57,752 bases of DNA from assembly GCA_018644935.1 (NCBI GenBank), contig JABGPL010000021.1, forward strand, positions 1 through 57,752. The letters are read 5' to 3'. Source of the stretch: Calditrichota bacterium (GTDB lineage: Bacteria; Electryoneota; AABM5-125-24; Hatepunaeales; Hatepunaeaceae). Numbering within the stretch: position 1 is the first letter of the stretch; each line of letters opens with the position of its first letter. Both the position numbers and the translations under genes were made by a program. Below, in pieces: positions 18,136 to 43,310 of this stretch. Below the pieces are notes generated by a model. It was given only the letters and a program-made list of their open reading frames with translations, ran no database searches and was not told where the DNA came from.

Positions 18136-19151
18136 ACGTCAAACTCTAAGCTGAGCAGGTATGTGTTCATCTTGATGTCCTGATCACTGAGGTATCTTCT
18201 GTACTTAAACCTCGTCTGAATATCTGAGAACATTTGCCAGTTAATTTCCGCTGCACAGGAGTGTGAATTTATTGATCTGCCCTTAATGAAATCAGGAACA
18301 GCATCTTCATCAAACCGACAGGCGAAGTATCTGTAACGGAGCCGCATTGATAAATCCCACCGCAAATACTGCCCAATTTCAAAAGTCGGTGAAATTGATT
18401 TTACTCCGTAGTCGTGATTATAGACACGCATTCCAGCATGAAGTGCAGTTTGAGTTGGCAGGTAGCGACTTAGAACTACAGTAAATGCACGACCGATGAA
18501 GTCTCCCGAATCACTCGTAGTTCGGTAAAGCTCCACCCGACCGCTCAATGCAGTCAAAGAATTGAGTGACCATCTCACATTTAGCATTGGTTTGAGTGTG
18601 CTGATAATCAAACCGTTTGAGTCCTTACTCATATCATAGCTTACTGACGCATCACCCTTGATCCAGCCTGACCGGTCATATTTAAGCCCAGCCGTAGCAA
18701 CATTTCCTCCGACATTTGCACTCGAATCTGGATCATTAATCCCAATGTTCAGGTTTTGGAATGACCCGTATAACGTCATCATATCGGTCAAATATCTATT
18801 ATATCTGAGATATCCGCGATGCTGGTCTTTATAATCGCTAAGCTCAGAATACTCATGCCTGAGCTCTATTGATTGCAACGGTCCCAGTGTCTGCTGAACC
18901 TTTGTCAGAAGCCGGTGTTCCGGGAAATCGGTAACATATGGATTCAAATATTCGAAGCCAATCTCGGGATCAGACGAAAGAGAAAGTGGATATCGATACT
19001 GGTTGTAATCACTGTATTGATACTCGAATTTGACTCGTGTCGCATACCAGCCTGTTTTGCCGAATGCCTGAATTTCCGATTGGAACCCGAAGACTAACAG
19101 GCAGATGATTATATACCATTGGCCAGTGGATCTGAGATCTTTGTTTTTCAT
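18132..19151 (-). CDS. DUF3570-like outer-membrane beta-barrel
   Basis: This 339-residue protein has a signal segment (IIICLLVFGFQSEIQAFG) and then alternating amphipathic strands rich in Tyr and Arg with a terminal aromatic/aliphatic residue pattern (LLSLEFDV), typical of an outer-membrane barrel. It is clearly paralogous to the protein at 35968: both share GxTGWY, EYQxSDY, FPEHR and DRSGWIKG. In other bacteria DUF3570 proteins are, to my knowledge, encoded next to a small DUF4266 lipoprotein and thioredoxin-like genes. Here the thioredoxin is present, but an FG-GAP selenoprotein stands where DUF4266 might be expected. It overlaps both neighbours by four bases. Its transported or bound substrate is unknown. 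Confidence 0.75.
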   Translation of the reverse strand: MKNKDLRSTGQWYIIICLLVFGFQSEIQAFGKTGWYATRVKFEYQYSDYNQYRYPLSLSSDPEIGFEYLNPYVTDFPEHRLLTKVQQTLGPLQSIELRHEYSELSDYKDQHRGYLRYNRYLTDMMTLYGSFQNLNIGINDPDSSANVGGNVATAGLKYDRSGWIKGDASVSYDMSKDSNGLIISTLKPMLNVRWSLNSLTALSGRVELYRTTSDSGDFIGRAFTVVLSRYLPTQTALHAGMRVYNHDYGVKSISPTFEIGQYLRWDLSMRLRYRYFACRFDEDAVPDFIKGRSINSHSCAAEINWQMFSDIQTRFKYRRYLSDQDIKMNTYLLSLEFDV

Positions 19152-20359
19152 TTCGTCAGTGTAATCATTTTAGTAGAATATTGACCAGCATTAGAAAGCC
19201 TAACGAGGTAATTTCCTGCCGGGTAGTCGGTCAAATCGAGTGGAATCTCAAGCTGGCCTAGGGATACATCCATAGTTGATACTGTCTGCCCGAAGGGATT
19301 GAATATCTCTAATTTTGAACTACCCAATAGTAAGCCACCGTATACTAACTTTGTGGAATTGTTAAAAGGATTGGGGTAATTTGACATGATTACAAACCCA
19401 GCAGGTGAAGGATTGGTGACAACGGGTGCACTATTCTCTGAGGCGTTTATGTACAGCCGAATTTCGGATTCGCGCAATCCTGTCACAATATCATAAAAGC
19501 CATCTCCGTTCCAATCGAAGAGGTCTATCCGGGCATACCCCGATAACCTGATACGGCCGTTTTCATCATCAAGACGGGTTCCGGAGTTGAACTGTGGGTC
19601 GTTATCTGTACCAATATTGGTATAAAACCAGATGTCGCCCCAGGTGCAACCAAACACCAGATCTCTTTTTCCATCTCCGTCAAGATCGACAAAAGCCGGG
19701 GATGAATCCGCACCATTATTAATTTCACCGTTACCCGATTCCAACGTGATACAACTCGATAAAACAAAGTTCTCAGGTGAGCCCGAATTAATGTAAAGAT
19801 TAATTGTCCCCCCAAAGGTGCCGACCAAAAGGTCAAGATCACCATCAAGGTCCCAGTCAACTGTCTGTGGAGCAGCTCTGGATAGACTGATTACCTCTCC
19901 ATCAACCTCAACTTTTCCTGCTGAGGAAAGCTCACCATCCTCATCTCGTATATATAAGGTAATCTCTCCATCAGCATCACCAACAAGCAGATCCATGTCA
20001 CCATCAGCATCTACATCCGCCATCTGCGGATAAGCACCCTGACATCATTCAAAAGGTGCGCAGAGCAATTCACCATCGGCAGAAAGTCGCCCTGAGAGCT
20101 CAAACGAGGGTTGGTTATCCTGAGGGGTGTTTGTGAACAGGTAAATTGGCCCATCTGTGAAAGTGCCAACAAGAATATCAAAATCACCATCATTGTCCCA
20201 GTCACCAACACAGGGAGCCGTGTATCCGGATGCGTCACCCGGAAATTCAGACGCTTCATTTTGAAGAACCACTGCCGGCTGGAAAACTGGAGGATCGGCA
20301 GTTGCAACAGCTGTCAAACTTAAGAGAAACAAAATTATCAGTGGAAACATATCTTTCAT
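19148..20359 (-). CDS. FG-GAP/VCBS repeat secreted protein, candidate selenoprotein (U-C)
   Basis: A signal peptide (MFPLIILFLLSLTAVATA) leads into FG-GAP repeats with Asp-rich calcium-binding loops (DWDNDGDFDILVG, DVDADGDMDLLVG, DWDLDGDLDLLVG). A sorting tail with YPNPFN closes the 403-residue protein. A TGA at codon 105 (complement of 20045-20047) is read through and is directly followed by Cys, giving FEUCQG; another Cys lies eight codons before it. The frame continues without shift into the next repeat. The ribosome site AGGAAA lies within the 18-base gap after arsG, so it is probably co-transcribed with the arsenical genes. A surface metal- or redox-related role is possible but unproven. 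Without Sec insertion only the first repeat and a half would be made. Confidence 0.82.
20015..20047 (-). promoter_or_regulatory. Sec codon and SECIS-like hairpin
   Basis: On the minus strand TGA is followed after 13 bases by the perfect stem ATCCGC/GCGGAT with loop AGATG. The loop starts 20 bases from the TGA. Stem length and loop distance match those of the other candidates in this window. Confidence 0.75.
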
Positions 20360-20377
20360 TTTTTATAATTTCCTGAG

Positions 20378-21061
20378 TTAAAGCATAACACCGAATGTAT
20401 AAATAATTGTGCAGTAAATGCCTGCCAGAATAAAAACAACGCTCGTAATCCGTCTCGCCCAGAGCTCAAACACCTTAAGTTTGTCATAGGCACGACCAAC
20501 GGCGTTTGCACTGAAAGCCAGCAGGATTGCGAAAAAGATGACTGGAAGTCCGGTCCCAATTCCGAAAATGGATGGATACAATATTGTCGAACCTATTCCG
20601 ACTGCCAGAGGAATCAAACTGCCGAAGAACAAAGCCGCTGAAACCGGGCAAAATGAAAGTGCAAAAACTATTCCCAACAGACCTGCACCCCAAATCCCCA
20701 TATCTCCCGCCTTGTCCTGTAGTTTTCCTGATCCCAGGGAGCTAAACCAATGGGCTGGAATTACTCCGAGCAGCATCACTCCGACAACAATCAGCACCGG
20801 ACCGAGAAAACGGTTGAAATAGTCCTGTAAGAAATTCGCCACACCCGGAATCGAGAGAATCCCGGTTACCACAATCGCGCCAACTACAACATAAGCAATC
20901 ATCCGCCCAAGGGTATAGAGCATTCCAGCGAGCAGCACTCGCCGGGTATTCTCAACTTTGTTTCCAATAAAGGAAATTGCAGCAATATTCGTCGCTAACG
21001 GGCAAGGGCTGATTGATGTCAATATGCCCAACCAGAGTGCGGTACCAATGCTTAGGAGCAT
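20378..21061 (-). CDS. arsG: ArsG-family efflux permease
   Basis: This 227-residue integral membrane protein has about six hydrophobic helices and the hallmark SISPCPLATNIAAISF near the N-terminus, plus a second Cys-Pro site (SFCPVSAALFFGSLIP). It belongs to the DsbD/CcdA-like superfamily, and the motifs fit the subgroup I know as ArsG, which with ArsE and ArsF handles aromatic arsenicals (reduction and extrusion). Its ATG directly abuts the stop of arsF. The order arsR, small thioredoxin, arsF, arsG supports the call. A general thiol-electron carrier of the CcdA type is the main alternative, and would also fit the redox genes downstream. Confidence 0.72.
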   Translation of the reverse strand: MLLSIGTALWLGILTSISPCPLATNIAAISFIGNKVENTRRVLLAGMLYTLGRMIAYVVVGAIVVTGILSIPGVANFLQDYFNRFLGPVLIVVGVMLLGVIPAHWFSSLGSGKLQDKAGDMGIWGAGLLGIVFALSFCPVSAALFFGSLIPLAVGIGSTILYPSIFGIGTGLPVIFFAILLAFSANAVGRAYDKLKVFELWARRITSVVFILAGIYCTIIYTFGVML

Positions 21062-21553
21062 CTACTTGCCTTCAGCGATGAAGGTGTCCATTTCAACTTT
21101 AACATAGTCGTAGAACTTTTCTTTATCTTTTTTATGTTCCCATACATCCTTCAGGTTTTTCCAGCGAACGATCTCTTCACCATTCATCACGAAAAATACA
21201 ACAGATTGAGTAAATAATCCGAATTCCTTTTTGAATTTCTTGTTCTTGGGATCCAAATAATTCGCAACCTTCCATTCAATCTGACCAGTCTCAACCCTTT
21301 TGGGGAAGAACTTTAACAGAGCATCATGTGAGTACATTTCAATTGTCTTGCATGACATACAGCGTTTGCGACCATGAAAGTAGTATGCTGAAATGGTCGT
21401 GAATTCTGTTTCGCTGTTCTTATCTGTCGATTCAATTTCTTTAACAGGCTCAACTGTTTTGTTTTTATCACCCGCGACACTCGCAGAAGGCAGAGTGATC
21501 AGCAATATAGCAAATGCTACCAGTATAACCATCCAAACATCAGAGGTCTTCAA
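21062..21553 (-). CDS. arsF: ArsF-family exported thiol protein
   Basis: The start is TTG at 21553, chosen because GGGAG lies at a good distance and a signal peptide (MVILVAFAILLITLPSASVAG) follows at once. The mature part holds the motif YFHGRKRCMSCKTIE, with CXXC near the start of a thioredoxin-like fold, and a Lys-rich C-terminus. This matches the family annotated as the ArsF subunit of nitrophenyl-compound reduction. It probably works outside the cytoplasmic membrane with ArsG. A generic nitroreductase-associated or thiol-handling role cannot be excluded. Confidence 0.72.
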   Translation of the reverse strand: MKTSDVWMVILVAFAILLITLPSASVAGDKNKTVEPVKEIESTDKNSETEFTTISAYYFHGRKRCMSCKTIEMYSHDALLKFFPKRVETGQIEWKVANYLDPKNKKFKKEFGLFTQSVVFFVMNGEEIVRWKNLKDVWEHKKDKEKFYDYVKVEMDTFIAEGK

Positions 21554-29538: not shown

Positions 29539-31455
29539 TTGTCGCAAAGTCACACGGTAATATGTACAGCCGGTCATATCGACCACGGTAAATCATCTCT
29601 CATCGAGTGTCTGACAGGATATCATCCTGATGTCTTGCAAGAAGAGCGTGACCGGGAGATGACAATTGAACTTGGATTTGCCTTTTACAAAGATGATGTA
29701 ACTTTTATTGATGTCCCCGGCCACGAGAAATTCCTAAAGACAATGCTCGCTGGTGCTTCCGGCGTTGATGGTGCAGTTCTGGTAATTGCAGCCGATGATG
29801 GCATAATGCCTCAGACCAGAGAACATTTCGAGATTTTGCGGATGATGGGTATCCAAGAGGGAATTATTGCACTGACGAAAATAGATCTCGCAGAGGAGGA
29901 ATGGGTTGAACTCGTTATCGATGATATCCGTGATATGGTCAAAGACACTTTTCTTGAATCAGCTCCAATAATTCCAGTTTCCAATCGTTCCAAAGTCGGA
30001 ATAGAGGATTTTCGAGCAGAACTTAACGATTTGATAGAGCGTGTGCCGATCAGAGGAGACCGTGGGTTGTTTCGAATGTGGCTTGATCGGGCTTTTACAA
30101 TAAAGGGGTCAGGAACCGTAGTTGCCGGCACAGTTCTTTCTGGTAGTGGCAATTTAAATGACCGAGTCGAAATCCTTCCCGCAGGAACGATAGCGCGAAT
30201 TAAACGGATACAGGTGCATAAGAAAGACGTCGCTGTTTGCAATATTGGTGAACGTGCGGCACTCAACTTGCCAGGGATCGATAAGGACCAAGTGAAACGT
30301 GGTGATTTGCTGGCAACGCCTGAACATTATCGACCATCGTTCATGCTCAATGCAAGATTGCATCTCATGCCTGGATTAAAGAGACCTATTGAGAATAGAT
30401 TCCGCATCCGGTTTCATCTTGGAAGTTCAGAGATTATTGGCAGATTATCCCTTTTGGAGGGAGATGTAATCAATCCGGGTGAGTCCTCATTAATTCAATT
30501 TCGTCTTGAATCACAGGCTATGGCAGATGTTGGGGACAAGTTTGTTCTTCGCAGTTTTTCAGAGGGGAGAGTGATAGGTGGTGGTGTTATCCTCGAAACT
30601 CATCCGAAAAAGATGCGGCATGTTAAGAAAGAAGAGCTCCGCCGACTGCGCAGGCTCGAATCTGCCGAACCGCGTGAGATTGTAAGACAATATCTTGAAA
30701 AGGTTGTTCACTTTATTGCCGATGCAGAAACGATTGCCCATGCAACAGCGTTTTTACAGACAGATATCATTGATATTTTAGCTGCTCAACATCGCGATAA
30801 TGAGATAAAAGTCATTGATCCGGATCCCAGGTGGGGCGTTGTGCTGATGTCTCGATACGCCGAATTAAAAGAGCTTATAATAAATTACATAGATCTTTTT
30901 CACAAGAAGAAACCCAACCTTCAGGGTGCACGCCGCTCTGATATGAAATCTCGATTAATGCCAAAGGCTCACCAGAAAGTTTTCGATGCAATTCTAGTCG
31001 ATCTCGCAGCTGAAAATGAGGCAATTGTTTCTGGTGAGATTGTCCGGAAAGCAGATTTTCAGATTAAATTCTCACCTGAGCAGGAGGAATGTCGTGACAA
31101 AATCAACAATTTGTTTTTGGCCAACCTCTTCACTCCTCCCAATCAGGATGCTATCTGTGATGAGGTTGACACAAATTGGAAATCTGTGGAATCAATTTTT
31201 ACTGGTATGGTTGAGCTTGGGATACTGACAAGGTTGTTCACGCCGGAAGGAAAACCGATATATTATCATTGTGAGGCAATTAAACAGGCTCGAAATAAAT
31301 TGAAAGAGTTCTTTGAAAGTCAGAATGAGATGCGTTTTTTTGAATTCCGGGAGCTCATCGGATCGAGTCGGAAATTTACAACACCGATACTCACTTTGTT
31401 TGATGATGAGGGATTAACTGTCAGAGAGGGTGAAATCAGAAAATTAAGGGGTTAG
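29539..31455 (+). CDS. selB: Selenocysteine-specific elongation factor SelB
   Basis: SelB delivers Sec-tRNA to UGA codons that carry a SECIS hairpin. The 638-residue protein has G1 GHIDHGKSSL at residues 12-21, G3 DVPGHEKFLKTML, and G4 TKID. EF-Tu-like domains II and III follow (RAFTIKGSGTVVAGTVLSG is typical of SelB), and then a long C-terminal winged-helix region (about 380-638) that binds SECIS RNA. The start is TTG at 29539, preceded by GGGAGC; no ATG fits the conserved N-terminus. It is followed 212 bases later by the FTR-SelD gene in the same direction. Its length is normal for the family. Identification is secure. Confidence 0.96.
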   Translation: MSQSHTVICTAGHIDHGKSSLIECLTGYHPDVLQEERDREMTIELGFAFYKDDVTFIDVPGHEKFLKTMLAGASGVDGAVLVIAADDGIMPQTREHFEILRMMGIQEGIIALTKIDLAEEEWVELVIDDIRDMVKDTFLESAPIIPVSNRSKVGIEDFRAELNDLIERVPIRGDRGLFRMWLDRAFTIKGSGTVVAGTVLSGSGNLNDRVEILPAGTIARIKRIQVHKKDVAVCNIGERAALNLPGIDKDQVKRGDLLATPEHYRPSFMLNARLHLMPGLKRPIENRFRIRFHLGSSEIIGRLSLLEGDVINPGESSLIQFRLESQAMADVGDKFVLRSFSEGRVIGGGVILETHPKKMRHVKKEELRRLRRLESAEPREIVRQYLEKVVHFIADAETIAHATAFLQTDIIDILAAQHRDNEIKVIDPDPRWGVVLMSRYAELKELIINYIDLFHKKKPNLQGARRSDMKSRLMPKAHQKVFDAILVDLAAENEAIVSGEIVRKADFQIKFSPEQEECRDKINNLFLANLFTPPNQDAICDEVDTNWKSVESIFTGMVELGILTRLFTPEGKPIYYHCEAIKQARNKLKEFFESQNEMRFFEFRELIGSSRKFTTPILTLFDDEGLTVREGEIRKLRG

Positions 31456-31667: not shown

Positions 31668-32990
31668 ATGGATACCGAATTACAAAAGGCATTGAAATTC
31701 CTGCGGAATGTCGCTGATCGTAACGGATATTTGCTTAATCCGGATCTGCGCACATTAGAGCGAATTGCATTGTCAATGGTTGAAAATCGCAGAAACCATA
31801 AACGGTATTTCTGCCCATGTAAACAGCATCATCCGGTTAACGCTGAGGTTGACCCTGTTTGTCCATGTGATGAATCGAAAGATGAAATCAGGCGTGACGG
31901 ATTCTGTGATTGTCATGTTTTCTTTGATGAATCTGGATATGAACATGCTAAAATGCGACCAGGTTTACTTTCAACTGTTGCATGCCCTGGTTGAGCATCC
32001 AAACTGTCAAGAGCGCAGTTGGCGCTCGCGTTATCGGGCTTAACCCCAATCACTGATGAACGGGTACTTGTCGGGACAAATACAGCAGATGATGCTGGAA
32101 TTATTCAGGTAACCCCAGACCTCGCTCTGGTTCAAACAGTTGATGTTTTTGCACCGATTGTTGATGATGCTTACACCTTCGGACGAATCGCTGCTATTAA
32201 TTCTCTGTCTGATATTTATGCAATGGGTGGGACACCATTATCAGCATTGAATGTAGTCGGGTTTCCTCAGGATCTGCCAAATGAAGTACTTTCTGAAATG
32301 CTTCAAGGAGGGCAGGATGAGGTAAATAAAGCCGGGGCAGTTTTGCTTGGAGGGCACACGTATCAGAGTACCGAACTCAGATATGGGCTTTCCATTACGG
32401 GACAAATCCATCCAGACGAAATAATTACCAATCAAGGTGCTAAACCGGGCGATAAACTAATTTTCACCAAGTCTCTTGGCTCCGGAACTATAATCCACGC
32501 AATGGTTTCGCGTGGAACTATAATGTCAGAGCTGTACAATGCTGCAGTTGAGACGATGACAATCTCAAACCGGGTCGCAGCGGTTGCAATGAAGGGCAAA
32601 GCCAATGCCTGTACCGATATAACCGGATTTGGATTCATAGGACATTGTTGGGAAATGGCAAACGCGAGTGGGTTTGGTATGGATATCTTCATCCATCGCC
32701 TGCCCGTTCTTCCACGGACCCTGGATTTAATTCGAGGGGGTGTTACAAATGTCGGCACAAAACAGAATCGGAATTCATTTGAAGAGTTTGTGATTATTGA
32801 TGACGAAGTTCCTGATGAATACGAAATATTGTTATATAATGCCGAGACCTCCGGCGGTTTACTAATGTCAGTAGATAAAAACAAAGTCGAAGAGTTATTG
32901 CAAGATCTAGACAATAAAGGGGAAAGAGGTGTAGTTGTGGGGGAAGTAACGACAGATCATCCCAGGAAGGTAAGAATAATTAATAAGTGA
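31668..32990 (+). CDS. selD: Ferredoxin-thioredoxin reductase domain fused in frame to SelD, Sec at CPGU
   Basis: Residues about 1-96 match the catalytic subunit of ferredoxin-thioredoxin reductase: FCPC, then VCPC, then FCDCHVFF hold the ligands of a 4Fe-4S cluster and a redox disulfide. With no stop codon, the frame runs into CPGUASKLSR, the selenophosphate synthetase active site with Sec at codon 109 (TGA 31992-31994) and the conserved Lys three residues on. The SelD ATP-binding domains follow (DDAGI, DIYAMGG, TGFGFIGH, ETSGGLL), total 440 residues. SelD makes selenophosphate for Sec synthesis. An internal ATG at 31953 could start SelD alone, 13 residues before Sec. In that case UGA would act as stop for FTR and as Sec for SelD. 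Downstream of selB; a terminator follows. Confidence 0.88.
31992..32027 (+). promoter_or_regulatory. Sec codon and SECIS-like hairpin of selD
   Basis: TGA at 31992-31994 is followed by the perfect stem GAGCGC (32011-32016)/GCGCTC (32022-32027) with loop AGTTG. The loop starts 23 bases after the TGA. Confidence 0.8.
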
Positions 32991-33149: not shown

Positions 33150-35468
33150 ATGAAACGTACCTGGATTATTTCTGGTTGTATGTTCCTCGCAGTATTATTT
33201 CTCGTCGGTCCTGTAGGGGCTGTTGAGATATTTCTGTGGGAACATGATAACCGTCTACTATCACGAGATGCTGTTTTTAATGCTGAGATAACCTGTACAG
33301 AGTCGGTTGCCCGAACTCTGACCGGGCTTAATATGGACTTTACTCGTGATGCGGCTTTACCTTCTATCGAGGAGTTGAACCACTACGATGTAGTTGTTAC
33401 AGCACTCGGTTTTTATTGTCCTGGTTGAGGTGGTGGTACACCAGCAAGCCGGATCGGCTTGGAAGAACAAGAAATATTGATTGAATACCTCAATGGTAAT
33501 CACGGACTTTATGTAGAAGGAAACGACTGGTGTGCGGATCACCGCAACACCGAGCTCTTCGAATATTTTCATATTAATTTTGAAGGCTTTAGTCAGAATA
33601 ACGTTGTTCGTACATTAGATGCGAATGACATCAATCGCTTTGGACTTAGAGCTTTCAGTTACTTGACTGGGAACAATGCTGCTGAACGCCCTGACTACGT
33701 TACCCCTGGTGACGGAGCGGAAGCAATTTTCACCTGTAATGCAGGTAATATCCGTGGAGTCTATTACGACGGAATGAGCCAGTATCGAACCTACGGGCAA
33801 ACAGTATCCTTCATGAGCCTCCAAAACAATCGCAACTTTGACCGCGCAGAATTCATGAGAGATGTTATCAATGAATTAGCTGGATATCGTGGCACCATGA
33901 CCGGCGTTGTGGTAGATCGTGAAGACACTCCCGTTGAAGGAGCCTTAGTTTCTGTATTCGGTCGTCTTTCTGCCTATACTGATGAAAATGGTGAGTTTTC
34001 GATTGACCGGATTCCAGTGCAGCAATTTTCAGTACAGGTTGAACGTCGCGGCTACACCACAATCGAATCTCAGGACTTCTCTTTTGAAGGAAACCGCGAG
34101 ATGGATGTGGTTATTCAAATGCGGAATCCAGTGCTGGATATTGACCCTATCTCAATTGAAGTAGATGTCAATCAGAATGCAGAAGAGACTTTCTCTGTGA
34201 ATATTAACAACTCGGGAGATGGACCTCTTGCATTCTCGACTCGTTTGAGAGCTGAACCTGTTGAAGGTCAACTTTGGGAAGAAGTTGGTGGTTTTGATGC
34301 AGGAACAATTACTGAAGATATCAGACTTCAGGCTGCTGTATTCCTTAATGGTTTTTATTGGATCGCTGGTGGTGGAAGCAGTGCAGATAACCCTAACTTG
34401 CTTTATAAAGTTAATCTCGATGGTGAATTAGTCGATCAATTTGAGCAGAACACAGAGAGTAACTACGGCTGGCGGGATATGACAACGGATGGTGAATTTA
34501 TTTATGCCGTTGATGCTAACTATATCGCGCAGATTGACCCGGAAACTGGTCAAATGACCGATACGCCAATTAACAGTGCGTACATGCCTCGCGAAACACA
34601 CGTTATTACTTATGATCCCGAAGAGGACATTTTTTGGGTTGCAGAGCAAACCGGTAATATCCTTGGAATTGATCGTCAGGGCAGTTGGGTTGATTTAGTA
34701 AACAACCGCAATCGCTTCAGGATGAGTGGATTATCATGGTTCGCGGATGATCCCGATGGTTACCAGCTCTATATTTCCTCACTTGATCCACAACAATTTC
34801 CAATTATGGTCAAATGTTCATATGCAAGTGAAGAAGCTATGGATATTTGCCTTATGCCATGTGGTGAAGAAGAAAGCATGGGTGGTGGTGAGATGTCATC
34901 TGAATTGATGCCCTATACCACATTGTTGGTTGCCCAGATGCAGGGACGCGCAGATTGGATTCGTACCTATGAAGCTGGAACTTGCTTCAATTGGGTTAGT
35001 CTTCCCCCCGGTCAGGCTGATATTGACCCTGAAGGTGCGATGAGCTTTGATCTTAAGTTTGATGCAACTGGTCTTGTAGTTGGGAACACTTACGAAGCCC
35101 ATATTCAGTTCGACCATAACACACCCGTTGAAGGTGCGATTTTTGTTGATATTGTAATGACAGTTCTGGATGCTAGCGCAGTAAATGAAGATGAAGCACT
35201 ACCATATCAGTTTGGCATTGCATCAGTCTATCCGAATCCGTTCAATCCGACAACAACTGTTAATTTTGGACTTGATATCGCATCAGACGTGAACCTCGCA
35301 GTGTTTGATCTTTCTGGACGGACAATGGCGACATTAATCAATGGTCAGGTTCCGGCTGGTCTTCACAACGCAACAGTTGACGCTCAGAATTGGCCGTCAG
35401 GTGTCTATGTTGTTCGACTTGCAGATGACACACGAGTTAATATGACTAAGATTACGCTTATCAGGTAA
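33150..35468 (+). CDS. Secreted amidotransferase-like/propeller protein with sorting tail, candidate selenoprotein (CPGU)
   Basis: GGAGGAAG precedes the ATG, and the signal peptide ends near VGPVGA. Residues about 25-240 resemble a class I glutamine amidotransferase or ThuA-like fold (HYDVVVTALGFYCPG, then a read-through TGA, then GGGTPASRIGLEE). The Sec at codon 93 forms a C-P-G-U redox-type motif at the spot where such folds carry a nucleophile elbow. Next come a carboxypeptidase regulatory-like domain (about 246-327), a propeller shared with the proteins at 12838 and 53529 (about 371-604), and a tail with YPNPFN from about 687; 772 residues in total. The upstream part alone would be only 92 residues with no fold. 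The enzymatic role is unknown; the same fold without Sec occurs in module B of the giant protein. Confidence 0.85.
33426..33460 (+). promoter_or_regulatory. Sec codon and SECIS-like hairpin
   Basis: TGA at 33426-33428 is followed by stem AAGCCG (33446-33451)/CGGCTT (33455-33460) with loop GAT. The loop starts 24 bases after the TGA (23 intervening). Confidence 0.75.
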
Positions 35469-35764: not shown

Positions 35765-35983
35765 ATGACGGTTTTCTACAATTTAAAAAAACATCTACTG
35801 TTGCCGTTTCTCCTGATCTTTGTGATCTTGCTGATTGCGGGATGTAGCGGGACAGGGAAGTACATGATTGATGATCCAGTGAATGACCCAATCATGCTGA
35901 CCGATGATCAACAGGATAGTGATCTCGTGAAGGTGGAAGAGGGCGGAGGTGGTTCTGCCGGAGGAGGATGTCCTACGTGATAG
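35765..35983 (+). CDS. DUF4266-like small lipoprotein ending in C-P-T-Sec
   Basis: The 72-codon product has a lipoprotein signal (FVILLIAGCSG), then DDPVNDPIM, an acidic stretch, and a Gly-rich end, GGGGSAGGGCPT. The next codon is TGA (35978-35980), followed at once by TAG (35981-35983). DUF4266 proteins, as I know them, have the same plan: lipobox, a DP-M motif, and a Gly-rich tail ending GGGCGCN. Here the terminal Cys pair would be C-P-T-U. A hairpin with the canonical GGTC loop follows at the expected distance, which makes C-terminal Sec more likely than a simple TGA stop. The gene overlaps the barrel gene that follows. It probably sits in the outer or inner membrane as a redox-active tail; its partner may be the DUF3570 barrel. 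Confidence 0.78.
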
Positions 35984-37023
35984 GCTTCAAATCACGCTTC
36001 GGTCGAAGCGAACTAAACGACGGAATTCTTAGCAGACAGCAGATTATTGTTCTATTGTCGACTTGTCTTCTAGTGTTTTGCATCACAGCTGAGCTTTTCG
36101 CAATAGGACCTACTGGTTGGTACAACACGAAGATAAAAGCTGAATATCAGTTCAGTGATTATGGTGAATATTCATTTCCTGAGGTTGAGTACGGGGATTC
36201 AATACAATTCATTGATCCCTATGTCTTCAGTTTTCCAGAACATCGCTCCCTGGTGAAGATTATTCAGTCGTTCGGTCCTAAAAAGGCACTTGAACTGCGT
36301 TATGAGAACTCTGTTCTTTCCAGTGACAAACAACAGGACAGATACTACTCTCGTTACGATCAGAACATTTCTGATCTGACAACTGTCTATGGTGTTTATC
36401 AGAGCCTTGACCTTTCGTATGATTCTCCTGACTCAATCTCCTCGGTTGGACATATGATGTCTCTCGGGATTAAGCATGACCGGTCGGGTTGGATTAAGGG
36501 CGAAACGAGCTTTAGCTATGACAATAGTAAAGCGCCTTCTGGATTAATCACTGAAACATTCATGCCTATGGTACAGGGCCGATGGTCTATCGATTCGTAT
36601 ACTGCTCTGTCTGCAAGGTGGGATGGTTACTGGGCAGTCAGCGATTCCGGGACGGTTCCTGCGCACGCATTTACAGTTTTTGTGAGCCGATATTTTCCGA
36701 CAGAGACTGCTGTTCACCTATTTTCACGATTCTATCGGAATGAAGATGGTGTTGAATCAATATCACCTGCAGTTGAAGTCGCACAATATGTTTTGTGGAA
36801 TCTTACCGCTCGCATGACCTACAGGTTCTATCGTAATTGGTTCGAGTCAGAAAATGCTCCTCCAACAATTGAAGGCAATTCTCTAACCGCACACAGCATA
36901 AGAACTAACATCGAATACGAGATAATGTCTGATGTTAAAATGCTGATTAAGTACCGATGGTATTCGAGCGACCAAAACATAAAAATGAGCACTTACCTGC
37001 TCGGTTTTGAGTATAATTTATGA
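35968..37023 (+). CDS. DUF3570-like outer-membrane beta-barrel
   Basis: This 351-residue protein starts at an ATG inside the Gly-Cys codons of the preceding gene, so the two are coupled, and its first codons double as the SECIS of that gene. The N-terminal extension is followed by a signal segment (LLSTCLLVFCITAELFAIGP). Then come the paired strand motifs GPTGWY, EYQFSDY, FPEHRS and DRSGWIKG that it shares with the protein at 18132. It ends with the alternating YLLGFEYNL typical of barrels. Position after a DUF4266-like lipoprotein and before a thioredoxin lipoprotein agrees with the gene order known for DUF3570. It is likely an outer-membrane protein; substrate unknown. Because its N-terminus serves two purposes, a start further downstream is possible. 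Confidence 0.78.
   Translation: MSYVIGFKSRFGRSELNDGILSRQQIIVLLSTCLLVFCITAELFAIGPTGWYNTKIKAEYQFSDYGEYSFPEVEYGDSIQFIDPYVFSFPEHRSLVKIIQSFGPKKALELRYENSVLSSDKQQDRYYSRYDQNISDLTTVYGVYQSLDLSYDSPDSISSVGHMMSLGIKHDRSGWIKGETSFSYDNSKAPSGLITETFMPMVQGRWSIDSYTALSARWDGYWAVSDSGTVPAHAFTVFVSRYFPTETAVHLFSRFYRNEDGVESISPAVEVAQYVLWNLTARMTYRFYRNWFESENAPPTIEGNSLTAHSIRTNIEYEIMSDVKMLIKYRWYSSDQNIKMSTYLLGFEYNL
35978..36010 (+). promoter_or_regulatory. Sec codon, TAG stop and SECIS with GGTC loop
   Basis: TGA (35978-35980) and TAG (35981-35983) are followed by perfect stem CGCTTC (35995-36000)/GAAGCG (36005-36010) with loop GGTC, the loop sequence of the E. coli SECIS. The loop begins 21 bases after the TGA. The hairpin lies inside the next gene's coding sequence. 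Confidence 0.82.
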
Positions 37024-38348
37024 TGAAATACAAATTTTTAATATACATACTGCCTCTATTGCTGCTAATGAGCTGCGGTGATTCTCCGACTGATCCACCG
37101 GATACAATCCTTAGCACTGGTTCAATCGAGATTTCGAGCAGTGTGGAGACCAATGCAACAGATGGAGTTGAAGCAGGACTTGGATTAGTTGTTCCCAGTC
37201 AAGGTATCATCCTGGATGGAGAAGATCTTGGTTTTAAACCTAATCCGATTGTTTTAAATGACATAATGTCCGGACCTCACCGTATTGAAACATATTTCAG
37301 CCTTGCAGAAAGGATTGTCGACGGCCCCAGTCAGACGGTTGAGGTAACATACAAAAATACGATGTCTGTACAGATTGTGGTCAATGTCGGCGTAATATCA
37401 ATTCGTAATTTTATCAATATTGATGGTGGTGAACAGGTCGAACCGGAGAGCATTGGTGTTATCCTTGATGGTGATTCACTCGGATTTTTGACGAATCCTG
37501 TTACATTGCATATGATTCCGGAGGGAAGCCATGATATTGCCACTTATGTAAATTATGCAGGTCGTGATTATGTCGGACCGCCAAGGGGTGTTAATGTTAG
37601 CCTCGGTGAAACTTCAGCGATGAACATCGAAATGGTTGCCGGTGGAGTAATAATTGCTACTGCAAGGTACAACGGTCAGGTTGTCTCGGAACTCGGGCTT
37701 AAACTCGACGGTGAAATTAGTGAGATATCCGGAAGCCCAAAGGTAATCACCAATGTTTCATCCGATGATCATGTTCTCGTGGCGTGGGCTATGGACGATA
37801 CCACAAGGCTTGAGGGATGGGATACTGACATTTATGTTGCAACCGGAGAGACTCTGTACGTCCAGATTGACCTTCAGGTTGTATCCCCCTGGGTTGGAAT
37901 GCATGCTCCCGACATATACTGTAGTGACATTGATGGCAATTCCCATTCGCTTTCAGAGAACTGGGGAAAAGTAATTTACGTTTATTACTTCAGCTACACG
38001 TGAGGCACCTGTACCGGGGAGGACATCCCCAACGCACAGTTGAAGTTGTTAGACCAGTTCCCGAATGATGAGATTGAAGTTTGGGTTCTTAATATGGATG
38101 CCGGAAAAGAGTGGCTTGAACAATATCGAGCTGATCCCAATCAACACCACATTTCAGAAAACCTTGATATGCCGATCATGTACGATGCTGACTCTGCATT
38201 TGAGAGCCATCAGGTTGGATGGCAATGGAATAGTTATCCTCCCTGTTATTTGATTATCGATCAGAATGGGATTGTTGTTAGTAGACAAAACTACATAAAT
38301 GTCGATACTGCCGCTGAAGTAATAGGTGGATTGTTGAGTGGGGATTAA
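37020..38348 (+). CDS. PEGA-thioredoxin lipoprotein, candidate selenoprotein (U-G-T-C)
   Basis: The ATG overlaps the barrel's stop (ATGA). A lipobox (LPLLLLMSCGDS) is followed by three PEGA-like repeats (IILDGEDLGFKPNPI, VILDGDSLGFLTNPV, GLKLDGEISEISGSP). A TlpA/thioredoxin-like domain follows from about residue 310. Before the active site it reads VIYVYYFSYT; TGA at 38001-38003 (codon 328) then gives U-G-T-C. After it come EVWVLNMDAGKEWL, MPIMYDADSAF and the cis-Pro-like SYPPCYLIID. The 442-residue protein parallels that at 17092 but has more PEGA repeats. It is probably a periplasm-facing selenol-thiol exchanger. Without read-through the fold would be cut before its active-site helix. Confidence 0.9.
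38001..38030 (+). promoter_or_regulatory. Sec codon and SECIS-like hairpin
   Basis: TGA at 38001-38003 is followed by stem GGGGA (38016-38020)/TCCCC (38026-38030) with loop GGACA, which starts 18 bases after the TGA. Confidence 0.7.
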
Positions 38349-38357
38349 GTTAAACGC

Positions 38358-38371
38358 AGGCGAGGACGCCT
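38358..38371. repeat. Small intergenic hairpin with AGGA loop
   Basis: AGGCG-AGGA-CGCCT lies 9 bases after the stop of the PEGA-thioredoxin gene. It matches the other hairpins of this window that share an AGGG or AGGA apex. Confidence 0.5.
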
Positions 38372-38410
38372 ACGCTACCAAAATTAATTCTAAACCAAAA
38401 ACGAAACAAA

Positions 38411-38959
38411 ATGCGATTAACAATAATTCTGGCATTAGTTTTAATGCTGACTACAAGTGTGATGGCGGATATTGAGCCCGGAACGCCTGTACCTGACTTA
38501 ACCTTGATTTCCCCGGAGGGTGAAAAAGTACAACTCCAAGATATGCTTGGGAGTGTTACTATATTGCACCTCTGGAAATGCAATTGACTGCAATGCCGTG
38601 CGGAGATTCCGCACCTGAAGAAAATTATGCCCGATTATGCTGATAAATCTGTCAAGTTTGTCTCCGTCAATACACGAGATCCAAAGGGTCAGGTTAAAGC
38701 AGAAATCAAGCGGTACAAAATAAATTATCCGGTTCATCTTGGTCGTGGGCAGAAAATCACTGAAAAATTTAAAGTGATGAAACTTCCTCGTCTAATCCTG
38801 ATAAAGTCAGACGGGACTATTTACAAAGATGTAATGTTTATGAAAGCTAAGGAGTTGAAAGCCGAAATTGATATGCTTCTAGCTGAAGTTCCCGTTCCAT
38901 CTGAAGAGACTCCCGACGTCCCTGAATCCGATAATGCGTCGGAAGAAATGAAGAAATAA
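38411..38959 (+). CDS. TlpA/peroxiredoxin-like exported protein, candidate selenoprotein (C-N-U-L-Q-C)
   Basis: A signal peptide (MRLTIILALVLMLTTSVMA) precedes a TlpA-type domain: EPGTPVPDLTLISPEGEKV, then ILHLWKCN, then TGA at 38585-38587 (codon 59), then LQCRAEIPHLKKI. With Sec the active site reads CNULQC: U-X-X-C with an extra Cys two residues before. The rest (VKFVSVNTRD, the cis-Pro region MKLPRLILIKSDG) is a complete thioredoxin fold, followed by an acidic tail rich in Pro and Glu. Total 182 residues. No good ribosome site precedes the ATG, so the start rests on the signal peptide. The gene probably hands electrons between the membrane oxidoreductase downstream and the lipoproteins upstream. 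Confidence 0.9.
38585..38614 (+). promoter_or_regulatory. Sec codon and SECIS-like hairpin
   Basis: TGA at 38585-38587 is followed by perfect stem GTGCGG (38598-38603)/CCGCAC (38609-38614) with loop AGATT, starting 17 bases after the TGA. It resembles the AGATG-loop hairpin at 20015. Confidence 0.8.
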
Positions 38960-38970
38960 AGGAGTAAGGG

Positions 38971-39165
38971 ATTAACATTAAAAAACTAATCCTCTTCGTC
39001 GTGTGGAGTATCATAATCATAGGTTCTCTGGTTTATGGTATTGTCCTCGGTGATCCACAGGGAATGCGCATCGAGGCGTCTACCCTTTGACTGGCTTGTA
39101 TCGGGGTCGGATGATCTCAAGATTACAAGTTTTTATGGAAAAAGAATTGTGAGTTCGCATCTTAG
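38971..39165 (+). CDS. 64-codon membrane protein with two in-frame TGA (candidate double selenoprotein)
   Basis: AAGGAG at 38958-38963 is followed by ATT AAC ATT, then KKLILFVVWSIIIIGSLVYG, a membrane helix. The exposed part continues IEASTL, TGA (39088-39090), LACIGVG, TGA (39112-39114), SQDYKFLW, and ends at TAG. If both TGA are Sec the motif is U-L-A-C-I-G-V-G-U, a three-selenol/thiol cluster just outside the membrane. No ATG or GTG precedes the helix, so the start would be ATT at 38971 or 38977; this is rare and adds doubt. A stem (CTTGTA 39095-39100 with TACAAG 39124-39129) could serve as SECIS for the first TGA. The gene lies between a TlpA-like selenoprotein and a membrane oxidoreductase, both redox genes. 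A decayed gene is the main alternative. Confidence 0.5.
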
Positions 39166-39279
39166 AGTGTTGGACACAGTTCTCATACATCCGCACTTGA
39201 CGGATAAGTCTTGTTTTCCCTTTTACGGGATTGGAAGGCAGTACAATCTGGAACAAGTTTGAATAAAGATAACCAAAGT

Positions 39280-41610
39280 ATGCTTGCCCCATGCATAAAT
39301 GGCTGCCCTCAGGGCACAGATATTTGTGCAATTTTAGCAAAGCTTTCCCATTCAGAAAAACCGGGTCAATCGAAAGAAAGATCTTTCGAGGAAGCCTGGG
39401 AAATTCTGACTAACACAAACCCTTTGCCTGCCATTTGCGGAAGAGTCTGTCCGCATAATTGCGAAAGCGCCTGTAATCGCAATGAAAAGGACGCCGCTGT
39501 AGCTTTCAACAATATTGAACGTTTTCTTGGTGATTATGGGATTGAACACGATCTCAAGTATACGCGATTACCAAATCCCGATCGACCGGAAAAAGTAGCG
39601 ATTATCGGAGCAGGTCCTGCTGGATTATCGTGTGCATATCAATTGGTTCGCAGGGGATATTCAGCGACTATCTTTGAGGCACTTCCGAAAGCGGGAGGTA
39701 TGCTCAGGTATGGCATTCCCGATTACAGGTTGCCACGTGATGTGATTGATGCTGAAGTCGCAAAGATAGTTGATCTTGGTGTAGAACTCCGCACAGGTGT
39801 AGAGGTTGGGAAAGATATTTCTTATGAGGAGATAGAATCTGAATTTAATTCAGTATTTATCGGCATAGGAGCTCATAAAGGCGCAAAGCTATACTGCCCC
39901 GGAGAAGAGACTGCTGGAGTTTATTCGGGTGCTGAGTTCCTGAGATTGATCAACAGCGGTGAATCGGTTGATGTTGGTGAGAATGTTGTTGTCGTAGGTG
40001 GTGGAGATACTGCTATTGATGCGGCGAGAGTTTCGAGACGACTCGGGGCAAATGTAACAATTCTCTATAGACGCACCAGATCTGAAATGCCAGCATATGC
40101 AGATGAAATTGTTGGAGGAGAAGAAGAGGGCGTTAAATTACATTTTCTCGCTGCGCCAATTGAAATTAAATCCGAAAATGGTCACGCGACCACAGTAATT
40201 TGTCAGCGGATGGAACTTGGAGAACCGGACAGATCAGGCAGACGCAGACCAATTCCGATAGATGGAGACACTTTCACACTGCCAGTCAGCAGTGTTATAG
40301 CTGCGATATCTCAGGCTCCCAGCTGGGGAAAAATTGATCAGTTTCAGAATCGCAAGGGTTGGATCGATGCGGATATGTGGGGTAGTACGCGTTTCGATAA
40401 TGTATATACCGGTGGTGACGACACCGGGCTGGGGTTGGTTACATCAGCGATAGCGGATGGACGGCGTGCCGCGGATGCTATTCACGCACGTTTAACGAAA
40501 TCCGAACTTCCTGTTGAAACAGAGCCAAATCTTATCCTTCCTGATAGATTAAATTTGCAGGTTGTTAAATCTACTCCACGACACGATCCAGTTGATGTCG
40601 GTGTTGAAAAGAGACTGCAATACACCTCAATCGAAATCAGACCAAGCCTGACTGCTGATGACGTAATCGCAGAATCGCAGCGCTGTATTAACTGCGGTCA
40701 CAGCTATATAAAGCCGAAAAGTAATCCTCTCCATTTCTTCCGTCGTTTCACACAACTTGGAATCGGAACGATACTGTTAAACAGTTACTTCGCGGTTGGT
40801 ACGACCAAACAGATTTACGGTGGTCAATTCCGCATGGTCTGCGTTCCTGGACTAAATTGCCACGCTTGTCCAACGGCGACAATGGGTTGCCCGATTGGGA
40901 TGCTTCAGTATTTCGCAGCCAATCACCGTTTCCCGTGGTTCTTGATCGGATTTGTCGGGATTATTGGTTTGTTGTCCGGGAGATTTACATGTGGCTGGCT
41001 GTGCCCGTGGGGATTCTTTCAGGACATAACGAACTTCTTCAAAAGGATAACGGTCCCTATCCCAAGAATCCTTGGATACGGCAAATACGTCGCACTTGTT
41101 CTATTGTGTATAGTCCTGCCATATATCACCTATGAGCATTGGTTTAGTGCGTTGTGTCCATGTGGAGCATTAATTGCCGGAATTCCCTGGGCTGTGTGGA
41201 ATCCGATAGATCCGGTGTTTGATGGACCAGTAATAGCTGCCGATGGAATAGGAATGATGTTCTGGATTAAGATGTGGATACTGGGAGTGTGTCTTGCGTT
41301 ATTCATGTTTATCAAGCGACCATTTTGCCGTACGGTATGCCCGTTGGGTGGTTTATACGCATTCTTTAACAGAATTTCACTCGTGTCGCTAAAGGTAAAA
41401 CCGGAATGTTCAGATTGCGGTCAATGCCGAGAATTGTGCCCTGTGGATATCGAACCGCAGAATGAAATAAACTCCGAGCCGTGCATCAAGTGTCTGGAAT
41501 GCACACAATGTGAACACATCAATTTCGATGTGAACTGGCCGGGGAAACCGAGCAACGGTTTCAAAAAGATTCCGGTTCAGGTGAAAACGGAAGTGAAAGC
41601 AACGGTTTGA
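39280..41610 (+). CDS. FAD/NAD(P) oxidoreductase (GltD-like) fused to a NapH-like membrane iron-sulfur module
   Basis: I start at ATG 39280 (MLAPCINGCPQGTDI); TTG at 39259 is possible. The N-terminal 4Fe-4S part (CINGCPQ, ICGRVCPHNCESAC) leads into a GltD-like flavoprotein with FAD motif IIGAGPAGLSCAYQL and NAD(P) motif VVVGGGDTAIDAARV. From about residue 465 it becomes a NapH/CcoG-like membrane protein: CHACP, FTCGWLCPWGFF, CPCGAL and RTVCPLGG loops between four or five helices, then two ferredoxin clusters (CSDCGQCRELCP, CIKCLECTQC). Such fusions can move electrons from NAD(P)H across the membrane. It closes the run of candidate selenoproteins and is the natural electron donor for them, which is an inference from gene order. 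Total about 776 residues. Confidence 0.88.
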   Translation: MLAPCINGCPQGTDICAILAKLSHSEKPGQSKERSFEEAWEILTNTNPLPAICGRVCPHNCESACNRNEKDAAVAFNNIERFLGDYGIEHDLKYTRLPNPDRPEKVAIIGAGPAGLSCAYQLVRRGYSATIFEALPKAGGMLRYGIPDYRLPRDVIDAEVAKIVDLGVELRTGVEVGKDISYEEIESEFNSVFIGIGAHKGAKLYCPGEETAGVYSGAEFLRLINSGESVDVGENVVVVGGGDTAIDAARVSRRLGANVTILYRRTRSEMPAYADEIVGGEEEGVKLHFLAAPIEIKSENGHATTVICQRMELGEPDRSGRRRPIPIDGDTFTLPVSSVIAAISQAPSWGKIDQFQNRKGWIDADMWGSTRFDNVYTGGDDTGLGLVTSAIADGRRAADAIHARLTKSELPVETEPNLILPDRLNLQVVKSTPRHDPVDVGVEKRLQYTSIEIRPSLTADDVIAESQRCINCGHSYIKPKSNPLHFFRRFTQLGIGTILLNSYFAVGTTKQIYGGQFRMVCVPGLNCHACPTATMGCPIGMLQYFAANHRFPWFLIGFVGIIGLLSGRFTCGWLCPWGFFQDITNFFKRITVPIPRILGYGKYVALVLLCIVLPYITYEHWFSALCPCGALIAGIPWAVWNPIDPVFDGPVIAADGIGMMFWIKMWILGVCLALFMFIKRPFCRTVCPLGGLYAFFNRISLVSLKVKPECSDCGQCRELCPVDIEPQNEINSEPCIKCLECTQCEHINFDVNWPGKPSNGFKKIPVQVKTEVKATV

Positions 41611-41618
41611 TTTGCTGG

Positions 41619-41764: not shown

Positions 41765-41839
41765 GTAGGGGTTGAATATCTTCAGTCCCGATGATATCGT
41801 TAAGACCGTAATAGGGCTGAAAATATTCAGCCCCTACAT
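41765..41839. repeat. Intergenic inverted repeat, copy 2
   Basis: TGTAGGGGTTGAAT near 41765 faces ATTCAGCCCCTACA ending near 41839. It is the same element as 41619-41677 with a longer centre. It lies in the selA leader. Confidence 0.8.
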
Positions 41840-41867
41840 CCTGTCCAAACCAAACAAAAGACGCATC

Positions 41868-43310
41868 ATGCTTGAAGACAAAAAAAAGAAAAAGAACCCC
41901 GGTCAGAAATTGCTTGCCAGTTTGCCGTCCATGACAGTGCTGCTGCAAAATGACGAAGTTGTGAATCTGATTGCCGAGTACCCCGAACGTTACGTGCAAA
42001 AATGCCTCCGCGAGATCCTTGATGACACCCGGCAGAAGATATTGAAAGGAAAAATCACCGATGCCGAACAAACGCCGGATATCTCGGATGTTATCTCCCT
42101 CGCGCGAAAAAGAGTGAAAGCCGGGTTAGGCAATAAGATTATGCGGGTGATTAACGGTGCAGGGGTGATCCTTCATACCGGTCTGGGCAGGGCTGCCCTT
42201 TCGGATTCGGCATTGGATGCGCTGACCGAAGCTTCGACACGCTACAGCCTCCTGGCAACAGACAGAGATTCGGGCAAGCGAGGTGACAGGTTTTCCCATA
42301 CGGATGAACTGCTCTGTGAGTTGACAGGTGCTGAGGCATCTCTCGTTGTCAACAATAACTCAGCTGCAGTGATGCTTGCGCTTAACACTTTCGGTGCAGG
42401 CAAGGAGTCCATTGTATCCCGTGGGGAATTGGTTGAGATCGGTGGTGCTTTCAGAATCCCTGACGTAATGGAAAGATCCGGGACGATCATGGTTGAGGTT
42501 GGAACGACCAACAAAACCCATTTGCGAGATTATCGTAATGCCATTACTGAAGAGACTTCACTGCTGTTAAAAGTTCACACATCGAACTACCGCATTGAAG
42601 GATTCCACGGTGAGGTTGGTGAAGCCGAAATGTCAGCACTTGCCAGAGAGAAGAACCTGATTACGGTTATGGATCTTGGCAGTGGCGCGATGGTCGATAT
42701 CCGTCGTTGGGGTGTAGCACACGAGCCGACTGTCCCGCAAGCTGTGAAAGATGGCATGGACATTATTACCTTTTCCGGTGACAAGATGCTGGGAGGTCCG
42801 CAATGTGGGATTCTAATTGGCAAAAAAGAACTCATTGCACAGATGAAAGTCAATCCCTTGATGCGAGCTTTCCGGTGCGGTAAACTGACATTGTCGGCAC
42901 TTAACGGGACACTACGCCTATTCCTGAATCCAGATACACTGCCTCAGACGCACCCTGTCTACGAGATGATAGGAACTCCAATGGATGTCATTAAGCTCAG
43001 GGCACAACGACTGGCGAGACGACTGCGAGCCATCGAAGGCTTCAAAGAAGCAATCGATATTTCAATTGGTACAGGACTTACAGAAATGGGATCCGGTTCA
43101 CTGCCAGCCAGAGGAATTGCAACACATGTAGTAGCTATGACCCCCAAAGCATGCAGTGCCGAAAACCTCTCAACGGCATTGCGTCAGGCGACACCTCCAC
43201 TGTTCACAAGGATAGAGGAGGAGCAAGTGAAGATTGATGCGCGGACGATCACGGATAAGGAAGTGGTTTGGATTGGTGAGGTGATGAGGGAGGTTTTGGG
43301 GAGGATATAG
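41868..43310 (+). CDS. selA: L-seryl-tRNA(Sec) selenium transferase SelA
   Basis: SelA converts Ser-tRNA(Sec) to Sec-tRNA(Sec) using selenophosphate. I start at ATG 41868, since the longer frame from 41772 runs through the repeat. The 480-residue protein, normal for the family, has the SelA hallmarks VINGAGVILHTGLGRAALS, the seryl-tRNA region DRDSGKRGDRF, and NNNSAAVMLAL. The PLP-binding site with its lysine is FSGDKMLGGPQCGI, followed by the C-terminal RGIATHVVAM region. No clear ribosome site precedes the ATG. It stands apart from selB and selD by about 9 kb of candidate selenoprotein genes, so the Sec machinery brackets them. Confidence 0.97.
   Translation: MLEDKKKKKNPGQKLLASLPSMTVLLQNDEVVNLIAEYPERYVQKCLREILDDTRQKILKGKITDAEQTPDISDVISLARKRVKAGLGNKIMRVINGAGVILHTGLGRAALSDSALDALTEASTRYSLLATDRDSGKRGDRFSHTDELLCELTGAEASLVVNNNSAAVMLALNTFGAGKESIVSRGELVEIGGAFRIPDVMERSGTIMVEVGTTNKTHLRDYRNAITEETSLLLKVHTSNYRIEGFHGEVGEAEMSALAREKNLITVMDLGSGAMVDIRRWGVAHEPTVPQAVKDGMDIITFSGDKMLGGPQCGILIGKKELIAQMKVNPLMRAFRCGKLTLSALNGTLRLFLNPDTLPQTHPVYEMIGTPMDVIKLRAQRLARRLRAIEGFKEAIDISIGTGLTEMGSGSLPARGIATHVVAMTPKACSAENLSTALRQATPPLFTRIEEEQVKIDARTITDKEVVWIGEVMREVLGRI

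Follow-up and report, generated by a model that had tools for sequence, protein, structure and literature searches.

How reducing power crosses the cell envelope without DsbD, and why some bacteria place selenocysteine (Sec) in several adjoining genes, are two questions that meet in a cassette of six genes on contig JABGPL010000021.1 of a Calditrichota bacterium (assembly GCA_018644935.1), analysed as a window of 57,752 nucleotides (nt). The six genes are consecutive on the plus strand (35765-41613) and are flanked by selB-selD on one side and by selA on the other. By their sequences, four of them encode selenoproteins, and two of these, a lipoprotein ending in CxxU-stop and a UxxC membrane peptide, belong to apparently uncatalogued families. 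In genome order, the cassette consists of the following features (FAD, flavin adenine dinucleotide; Fe-S, iron-sulfur; SECIS, selenocysteine insertion sequence):

35765-35983, plus strand: DUF4266-like lipoprotein with C-terminal ...GGGCPTU; Sec codon TGA at 35978-35980, then TAG
35995-36010, plus strand: SECIS-like hairpin CGCTTC(GGTC)GAAGCG for this Sec codon; changes on both sides at 4 of 6 pairs
35968-37023, plus strand: DUF3570-like outer-membrane beta-barrel (HHalign, AlphaFold barrel, porin-fold matches), without the [ST]GA[ST] flavinylation motif
37020-38348, plus strand: PEGA-like and redoxin lipoprotein, TUGTC motif; Sec TGA at 38001-38003, with a covarying hairpin just 3'
38411-38959, plus strand: TlpA/ResA-like redoxin, WKCNULQC motif; Sec TGA at 38585-38587, covarying hairpin GTGCGGA(GAT)TCCGCAC
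~38971-39114, plus strand: small one-helix membrane selenopeptide ...STLULACIGVG of ~47 residues; Sec TGA at 39088-39090, stop TGA at 39112-39114
39262-41613, plus strand: fusion of an FAD-Fe-S NAD(P)H oxidoreductase of the GltD/NfnA kind (~39262-40719) with a NapH-like Fe-S module in the membrane (~40720-41550)

An earlier note on this DNA had placed these six neighbouring genes on one path, and all are indeed present, consecutive and on one strand, four of them with an in-frame UGA read as Sec; their listing, however, ran from 3' to 5', the reverse of the genome order. The overlapping starts described there are found between the lipoprotein and barrel genes, where the barrel ATG precedes the UGA by 10 nt, in the window as in five family members, and between the barrel and PEGA genes, which overlap by 4 nt, whereas the small peptide and GltD-NapH genes do not overlap their neighbours. 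The open frame of GltD-NapH begins at 39211. The peptide gene has no ATG, GTG or TTG start in the window, where its start is probably ATT; in most relatives it is ATG.

Selenocysteine decoding in the cassette

In-frame UGA is invariant at the four cassette sites in every relative examined. All 15 lipoprotein loci end in CPT-UGA followed directly by a second stop codon (TAG in 9, TAA in 2, TGA in 4), against a stop directly after TGA in 2 of 89 control frames (TGA-ended open frames of at least 150 codons from the same loci). Although the relatives are not independent of one another, the interchange of TAG, TAA and TGA at this position shows that it is the second stop itself that is conserved.

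Each cassette UGA is followed by a stem, mostly of 6-7 pairs, whose loop contains G. These hairpins were located by a custom scan and alignment, Rfam at gathering scores giving no SECIS in the window. A hairpin score of 16 is reached by 9% of the 89 TGA controls; since single hairpins of such strength are thus not rare after TGA, it is covariation, and not the hairpin alone, that carries weight. The covariation scores of the PEGA-redoxin, TlpA-like and lipoprotein hairpins lie above all 500 shuffles, that of the lipoprotein being counted on nine equal-length sequences (the MAFFT alignment of all 15 was misaligned). The peptide hairpin, which is nearly always paired and varies little, has a covariation score that 64 of 500 shuffles reach. 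A second in-frame UGA of the peptide was considered as Sec and rejected in favour of a stop codon, the downstream codons being unrelated and the UGA sitting inside the hairpin.

In the two redoxins, UGA replaces the first Cys of a CxxC motif at all sites found (16/16 PEGA and 13/13 TlpA), and Cys homologues are indicated by TlpA/ResA matches. Cys and Sec also exchange in the peptide family, which outside the phylum mostly carries Cys, with UGA in 3 of 29 loci; no Cys form of the lipoprotein CPTU was found. The host has selA, selB, selD and tRNA-Sec. Both selB and tRNA-Sec exceed their cut-offs in all 14 genomes that carry the cassette, and neither passes in two cassette-less genomes of the same family (G004 and G007). 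The usual marks of a selenoprotein (UGA, hairpin, machinery and Cys homologues) are thus in place, and the sequences put Sec decoding in the cassette far beyond chance. The assemblies are all metagenomic, which could suggest that the UGA codons are plain stops or sequencing errors in broken genes. This is scarcely credible: different projects yield the same UGAs, at up to 16 loci, and the tandem stops (15/15 against 2/89), the three covarying hairpins and the full Sec machinery, which bear out the four selenoproteins of the earlier note, all speak against it.

A 2026 review tabulates ~119 prokaryotic selenoprotein families, including TlpA-type and Redoxin-type proteins with UxxC; the CPTU/DUF4266-like lipoprotein and the CD1871A-like peptide were not found in the accessible part of its family table (PMC13188914). 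The review also names the Tso (three-selenoprotein) and SAO operons, which resemble the cassette in having several selenoprotein genes each but differ in their families (PMC13188914). The LULA motif of the peptide brought TsoA to mind as a candidate; this was rejected, TsoA having LULAxC, 144 positions and a different spacing, and TsoA had no match in the phylum genomes searched. For LCP-89 bacterium B3_LCP, a deep-learning survey reported four known selenoproteins and none that was new, and a contig titled for this bacterium carries four Sec genes from the cassette alone, so the two small cassette selenoproteins may have been missed.

Conservation of the unit and of the peptide-NapH pair

Conservation was assessed in 39 genomes of the phylum, with statistics that ignore kinship. 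The lipoprotein is present in 14 of the 39, the cassette genomes; a NapH module of the cassette kind occurs in 14/14 of these and in 1 of the 25 others (G019; hypergeometric 1e-9, uncorrected for kinship). The six-gene order is intact in 10 assemblies (nine genomes and locus L057) from at least two families, a count that includes NapH without GltD in G018 and L057. Gaps in G002, G021 and G024 are explained by contig ends, and in G017 a NapH fused to a ferredoxin-like domain lies on another contig, with no peptide visible there. A pattern scan for the lipoprotein across 84,980 species, which requires close matches and misses distant forms, gave 14 matches only. Judged by these comparisons, the six genes are one conserved, co-inherited unit. 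The gene-neighbourhood survey suggested by the earlier note, directed at NapH-GltD fusions, links NapH to the lipoprotein and barrel genes, but the GltD fusion is not obligatory: in 5 of the 15 loci NapH stands alone or is fused to a ferredoxin domain.

The NapH-like module scores 49.9 bits with TIGR02163 (NapH/MauN; cut-off 213) and is NapH-like only; it carries conserved CVPxLNCHxCP and CPIG cysteines near the first helices and, at the C terminus, two clusters of the ferredoxin type. The GltD half resembles structures of NfnA, dihydropyrimidine dehydrogenase and GltD, the glutamate synthase small chain, all of them NAD(P)H-FAD-Fe-S proteins. A GltD-like half is also found in NF045663 (diclust_near_Sec, a pyridine nucleotide-disulfide oxidoreductase/dicluster protein named from its proximity to Sec genes), but at 146 bits (cut-off 530) the cassette protein does not belong to that family.

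The Sec motif of the peptide is ULAC, and since positive residues precede the helix, this motif would lie outside the membrane. The peptide resembles the CD1871A family CXXC peptide (NF040920), likewise tiny, with one helix and a CxxC[IV]G end, and encoded, in most genomes with a match, directly upstream of a NapH homologue. NapH adjacency and a [CU]LxCIG motif are common to both, but the cassette peptide is below the cut-off (10.8 bits against 32) and has Sec at the first motif position. In other bacteria, CD1871A-family matches lie directly upstream of NapH in most genomes having both. A [CU]xxC[IV]G peptide is found within ~500 nt upstream in 29 of 40 NapH loci outside the phylum, and in 1.7% of random windows, some of which include true ones. 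Seven of the 40 loci adjoin a Pfam-confirmed thioredoxin-fold protein and one further locus adjoins an Omp28-type protein of the type IX secretion system (T9SS) with CPYC; the remaining neighbours are unrelated, so the partners of the pair vary. From these sequences, peptide and NapH also occur together in many other bacteria, where the peptide usually carries Cys, and this Cys version is present in culturable species. In the literature covered, which did not include Haft and Tolstoy 2025, no paper describes the peptide family or NapH-thioredoxin pairs. A UxxC (Sec) peptide also lies beside NapH in four genomes without the rest of the cassette (L146, L147, L151 and L130, the last in G019), and an Obg-like small GTPase gene is found near peptide-NapH in two distant genomes (L087:6122-7189 in G005 and L025:4958-6037 in G018).

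A putative reductant relay and its alternatives

What, then, might the six genes do together? By sequence, their redox centres are the ULxC peptide, the two UxxC redoxins and the CxxU end of the lipoprotein. We favour, at a probability of about 55%, a selenium-based relay of reductant across the cell envelope. Cytosolic NAD(P)H would reduce the FAD and Fe-S clusters of the GltD half, another cytosolic or quinol donor taking its place where GltD is missing; NapH would carry electrons to the periplasmic face and reduce the peptide selenenylsulfide; the peptide would pass them to the two redoxins (TlpA-like and PEGA), from which they would reach the CxxU lipoprotein, seated at the barrel in the outer membrane. 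Candidate final targets are disulfides of outer-membrane or T9SS-exported proteins, or an external oxidant. The whole would form a DsbD/CcdA-like pathway with NapH and the UxxC peptide in place of DsbD, and with selenols in place of the thiols and bound flavin of known DUF3570 systems.

The comparison with those systems is instructive in both directions. DsbD-type flavinylation clusters, the nearest described systems, combine ApbE, DUF3570, thioredoxin-like and DUF4266 proteins (Meheust et al., 2021, PMC8238504). Like them, the cassette has a DUF3570-type barrel, a thioredoxin-fold protein, a small lipoprotein whose C-terminal motif is of redox type and an inner-membrane donor, but this donor is GltD-NapH with the UxxC peptide, no DsbD/CcdA-like membrane protein is encoded within 35765-41613, the redoxins carry Sec and the cassette has no apbE. 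The DUF4266 and DUF3570 labels of the earlier note survive as distant resemblances, neither Pfam model matching. DUF4266 (PF14086) is over cut-off in no cassette genome and, within the phylum, in G015 only; the cassette lipoprotein matches the canonical family in layout alone (short lipoprotein, Gly-rich tail, adjoining DUF3570), its motif being CxxU and not CxC. DUF3570 (PF12094) is over cut-off in none of the cassette barrels (19.7 bits, sub-threshold, in G005), whereas HHalign aligns them with canonical DUF3570 over 227 columns (96.9%, P 1.9e-10), a result that, without a negative control, could reflect a generic barrel match. The AlphaFold model is a porin-like beta-barrel (predicted local distance difference test, pLDDT, 83.5), and structure search gives porin-fold matches. 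Flavinylation of the cassette was considered and rejected, the [ST]GA[ST] motif being missing in 14 of 15 barrel sequences and apbE not lying beside the cassette (the rest of the genome was not searched for apbE). By analogy, the cassette would work like a DsbD-fed DUF3570 system while failing that family's defining tests. In weak DUF4266 members from two other genomes (L083 and L084, in G071 and G216), the lipoprotein ends in CxxC (CVSC) and adjoins a DUF3570 protein; these are possible intermediates. With the NapH-like transmembrane systems (PMC8238504), the cassette shares a multi-Cys NapH-type membrane Fe-S donor to extracytosolic carriers, but it has no domain binding flavin mononucleotide, and it has a Cys/Sec peptide partner and, in most members, a fused NAD(P)H flavoprotein.

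A second cluster in the window bears on the nature of the donor:

17092-18135, minus strand: PEGA-redoxin selenoprotein, paralogous to that of the cassette, STUTVC motif; Sec TGA at 17424
18132-19151, minus strand: paralogous DUF3570-like barrel
20378-21061, minus strand: membrane protein of the ArsG/CcdA kind, next to the paralogues
21062-21553, minus strand: ArsF-like thioredoxin-fold protein, CMSC motif

Here lies the best argument that NapH and the peptide do the DsbD/CcdA job in the cassette, since, with a CcdA-like protein in this cluster and DsbD in the known DUF3570-DUF4266 clusters (PMC8238504), two different membrane donors adjoin the same kinds of barrel and redoxin. The minus-strand cluster (17092-21553) also contains a VCBS/T9SS protein.

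The domain content fits the outward route of the earlier note, one that starts at a cytosolic NAD(P)H flavoprotein, crosses the membrane by way of a NapH-type Fe-S protein and reaches periplasmic seleno-redoxins. Several points nevertheless weigh against the relay. The direction of flow is itself inferred, and the lipoprotein and barrel could be merely co-regulated rather than acceptors. NapH itself being linked to quinol, electrons may come from quinol in relatives that lack GltD. The NapH model is of low confidence (pLDDT 62), its membrane topology thus being only predicted. In G005, the peptide-NapH pair is on another contig than the lipoprotein, barrel and PEGA genes, a true split; genes both unlinked and not co-occurring, which the earlier note would have taken as counter-evidence, are not what the survey found, with linkage broken in this one genome and co-occurrence in 14/14.

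It is possible, if on the unlikely side, that nothing leaves the cell, and that the donor and the two redoxins keep periplasmic proteins, T9SS-exported proteins or apocytochromes reduced for repair or maturation, with the lipoprotein and barrel as an assembly or docking site. The closest structures to the TlpA-like protein are those of ResA, T9SS-type proteins adjoin the cassette and the peptide-NapH pair has thioredoxin partners elsewhere, but cytochrome-maturation genes were not noticed near the cassette, and we know of no maturation pathway with a DUF3570-type barrel and a CxxU lipoprotein. The relay may also be one case of something broader, NapH with a UxxC/CxxC peptide acting across bacteria as a general transmembrane donor for extracytoplasmic thioredoxins and, in this phylum, driving a selenoprotein chain to the lipoprotein, the barrel and a T9SS-exported CPGU protein outside the cell; in this full form the proposal is rather unlikely.

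Selenium-dependent defence against peroxide or other oxidants, in which AhpC/TSA-type seleno-redoxins would be peroxidases recycled by NAD(P)H via NapH, is improbable, even though profile searches give redoxin and AhpC-TSA domain matches in the cassette redoxins and several selenoproteins of the same fold are peroxidases according to the accessible part of the review (PMC13188914). The UxxC motifs align with the CxxC of thioredoxin and ResA, not with peroxidatic TxxC/TxxU. Moreover, a peroxidase does not need an outer-membrane barrel. Inward flow, from an oxidised external or periplasmic donor to NAD(P)+ or quinone, is very improbable: the sequences leave direction unfixed, but proteins of the TlpA/ResA type are normally reductants. 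NapH-type proteins serve reductases and oxidases alike, yet DsbD, the partner of canonical DUF3570-DUF4266 clusters, donates outward (PMC8238504).

Sec machinery genes and a surface protein beside the cassette

The genes flanking the cassette are the following:

29539-31455, plus strand: SelB (profile match)
31668-32990, plus strand: FtrB-SelD fusion selenophosphate synthetase; Sec TGA at 31992
33150-35468, plus strand: T9SS-sorting-domain protein, YCPGU; Sec TGA at 33426-33428, hairpin CAAGCCG(GAT)CGGCTTG
41772-43310, plus strand: SelA (profile match)

The T9SS-tail gene, directly upstream of the cassette, reads YCPG-UGA-GGG at 33426, a Sec codon that, like the one at 17424, the earlier note had missed. 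This UGA is shared with two relatives (L017:13930 and L021:5397), at least 2 hairpin pairs carry compensating changes on both sides, and the gene lies near selD in all three loci; its product is a probable surface selenoprotein. Position alone links it to the cassette, and it may be where the path ends at the surface; were it part of the chain, the chain would reach the surface.

The N terminus of SelD is fused to a ferredoxin-thioredoxin-reductase (FtrB-like) domain, a fusion kept in L017 and L021. In G003, a tRNA-Sec gene (C57:9284-9377, locus L018) lies ~180 bases 3' of selA, so that a single locus there holds the cassette together with selA and tRNA-Sec. Finally, the genomes of family f6 (G013, G018, G021, G024, G027 and G030) have two tRNA-Sec each and most of them two strong SelB hits, which suggests two Sec-decoding sets.

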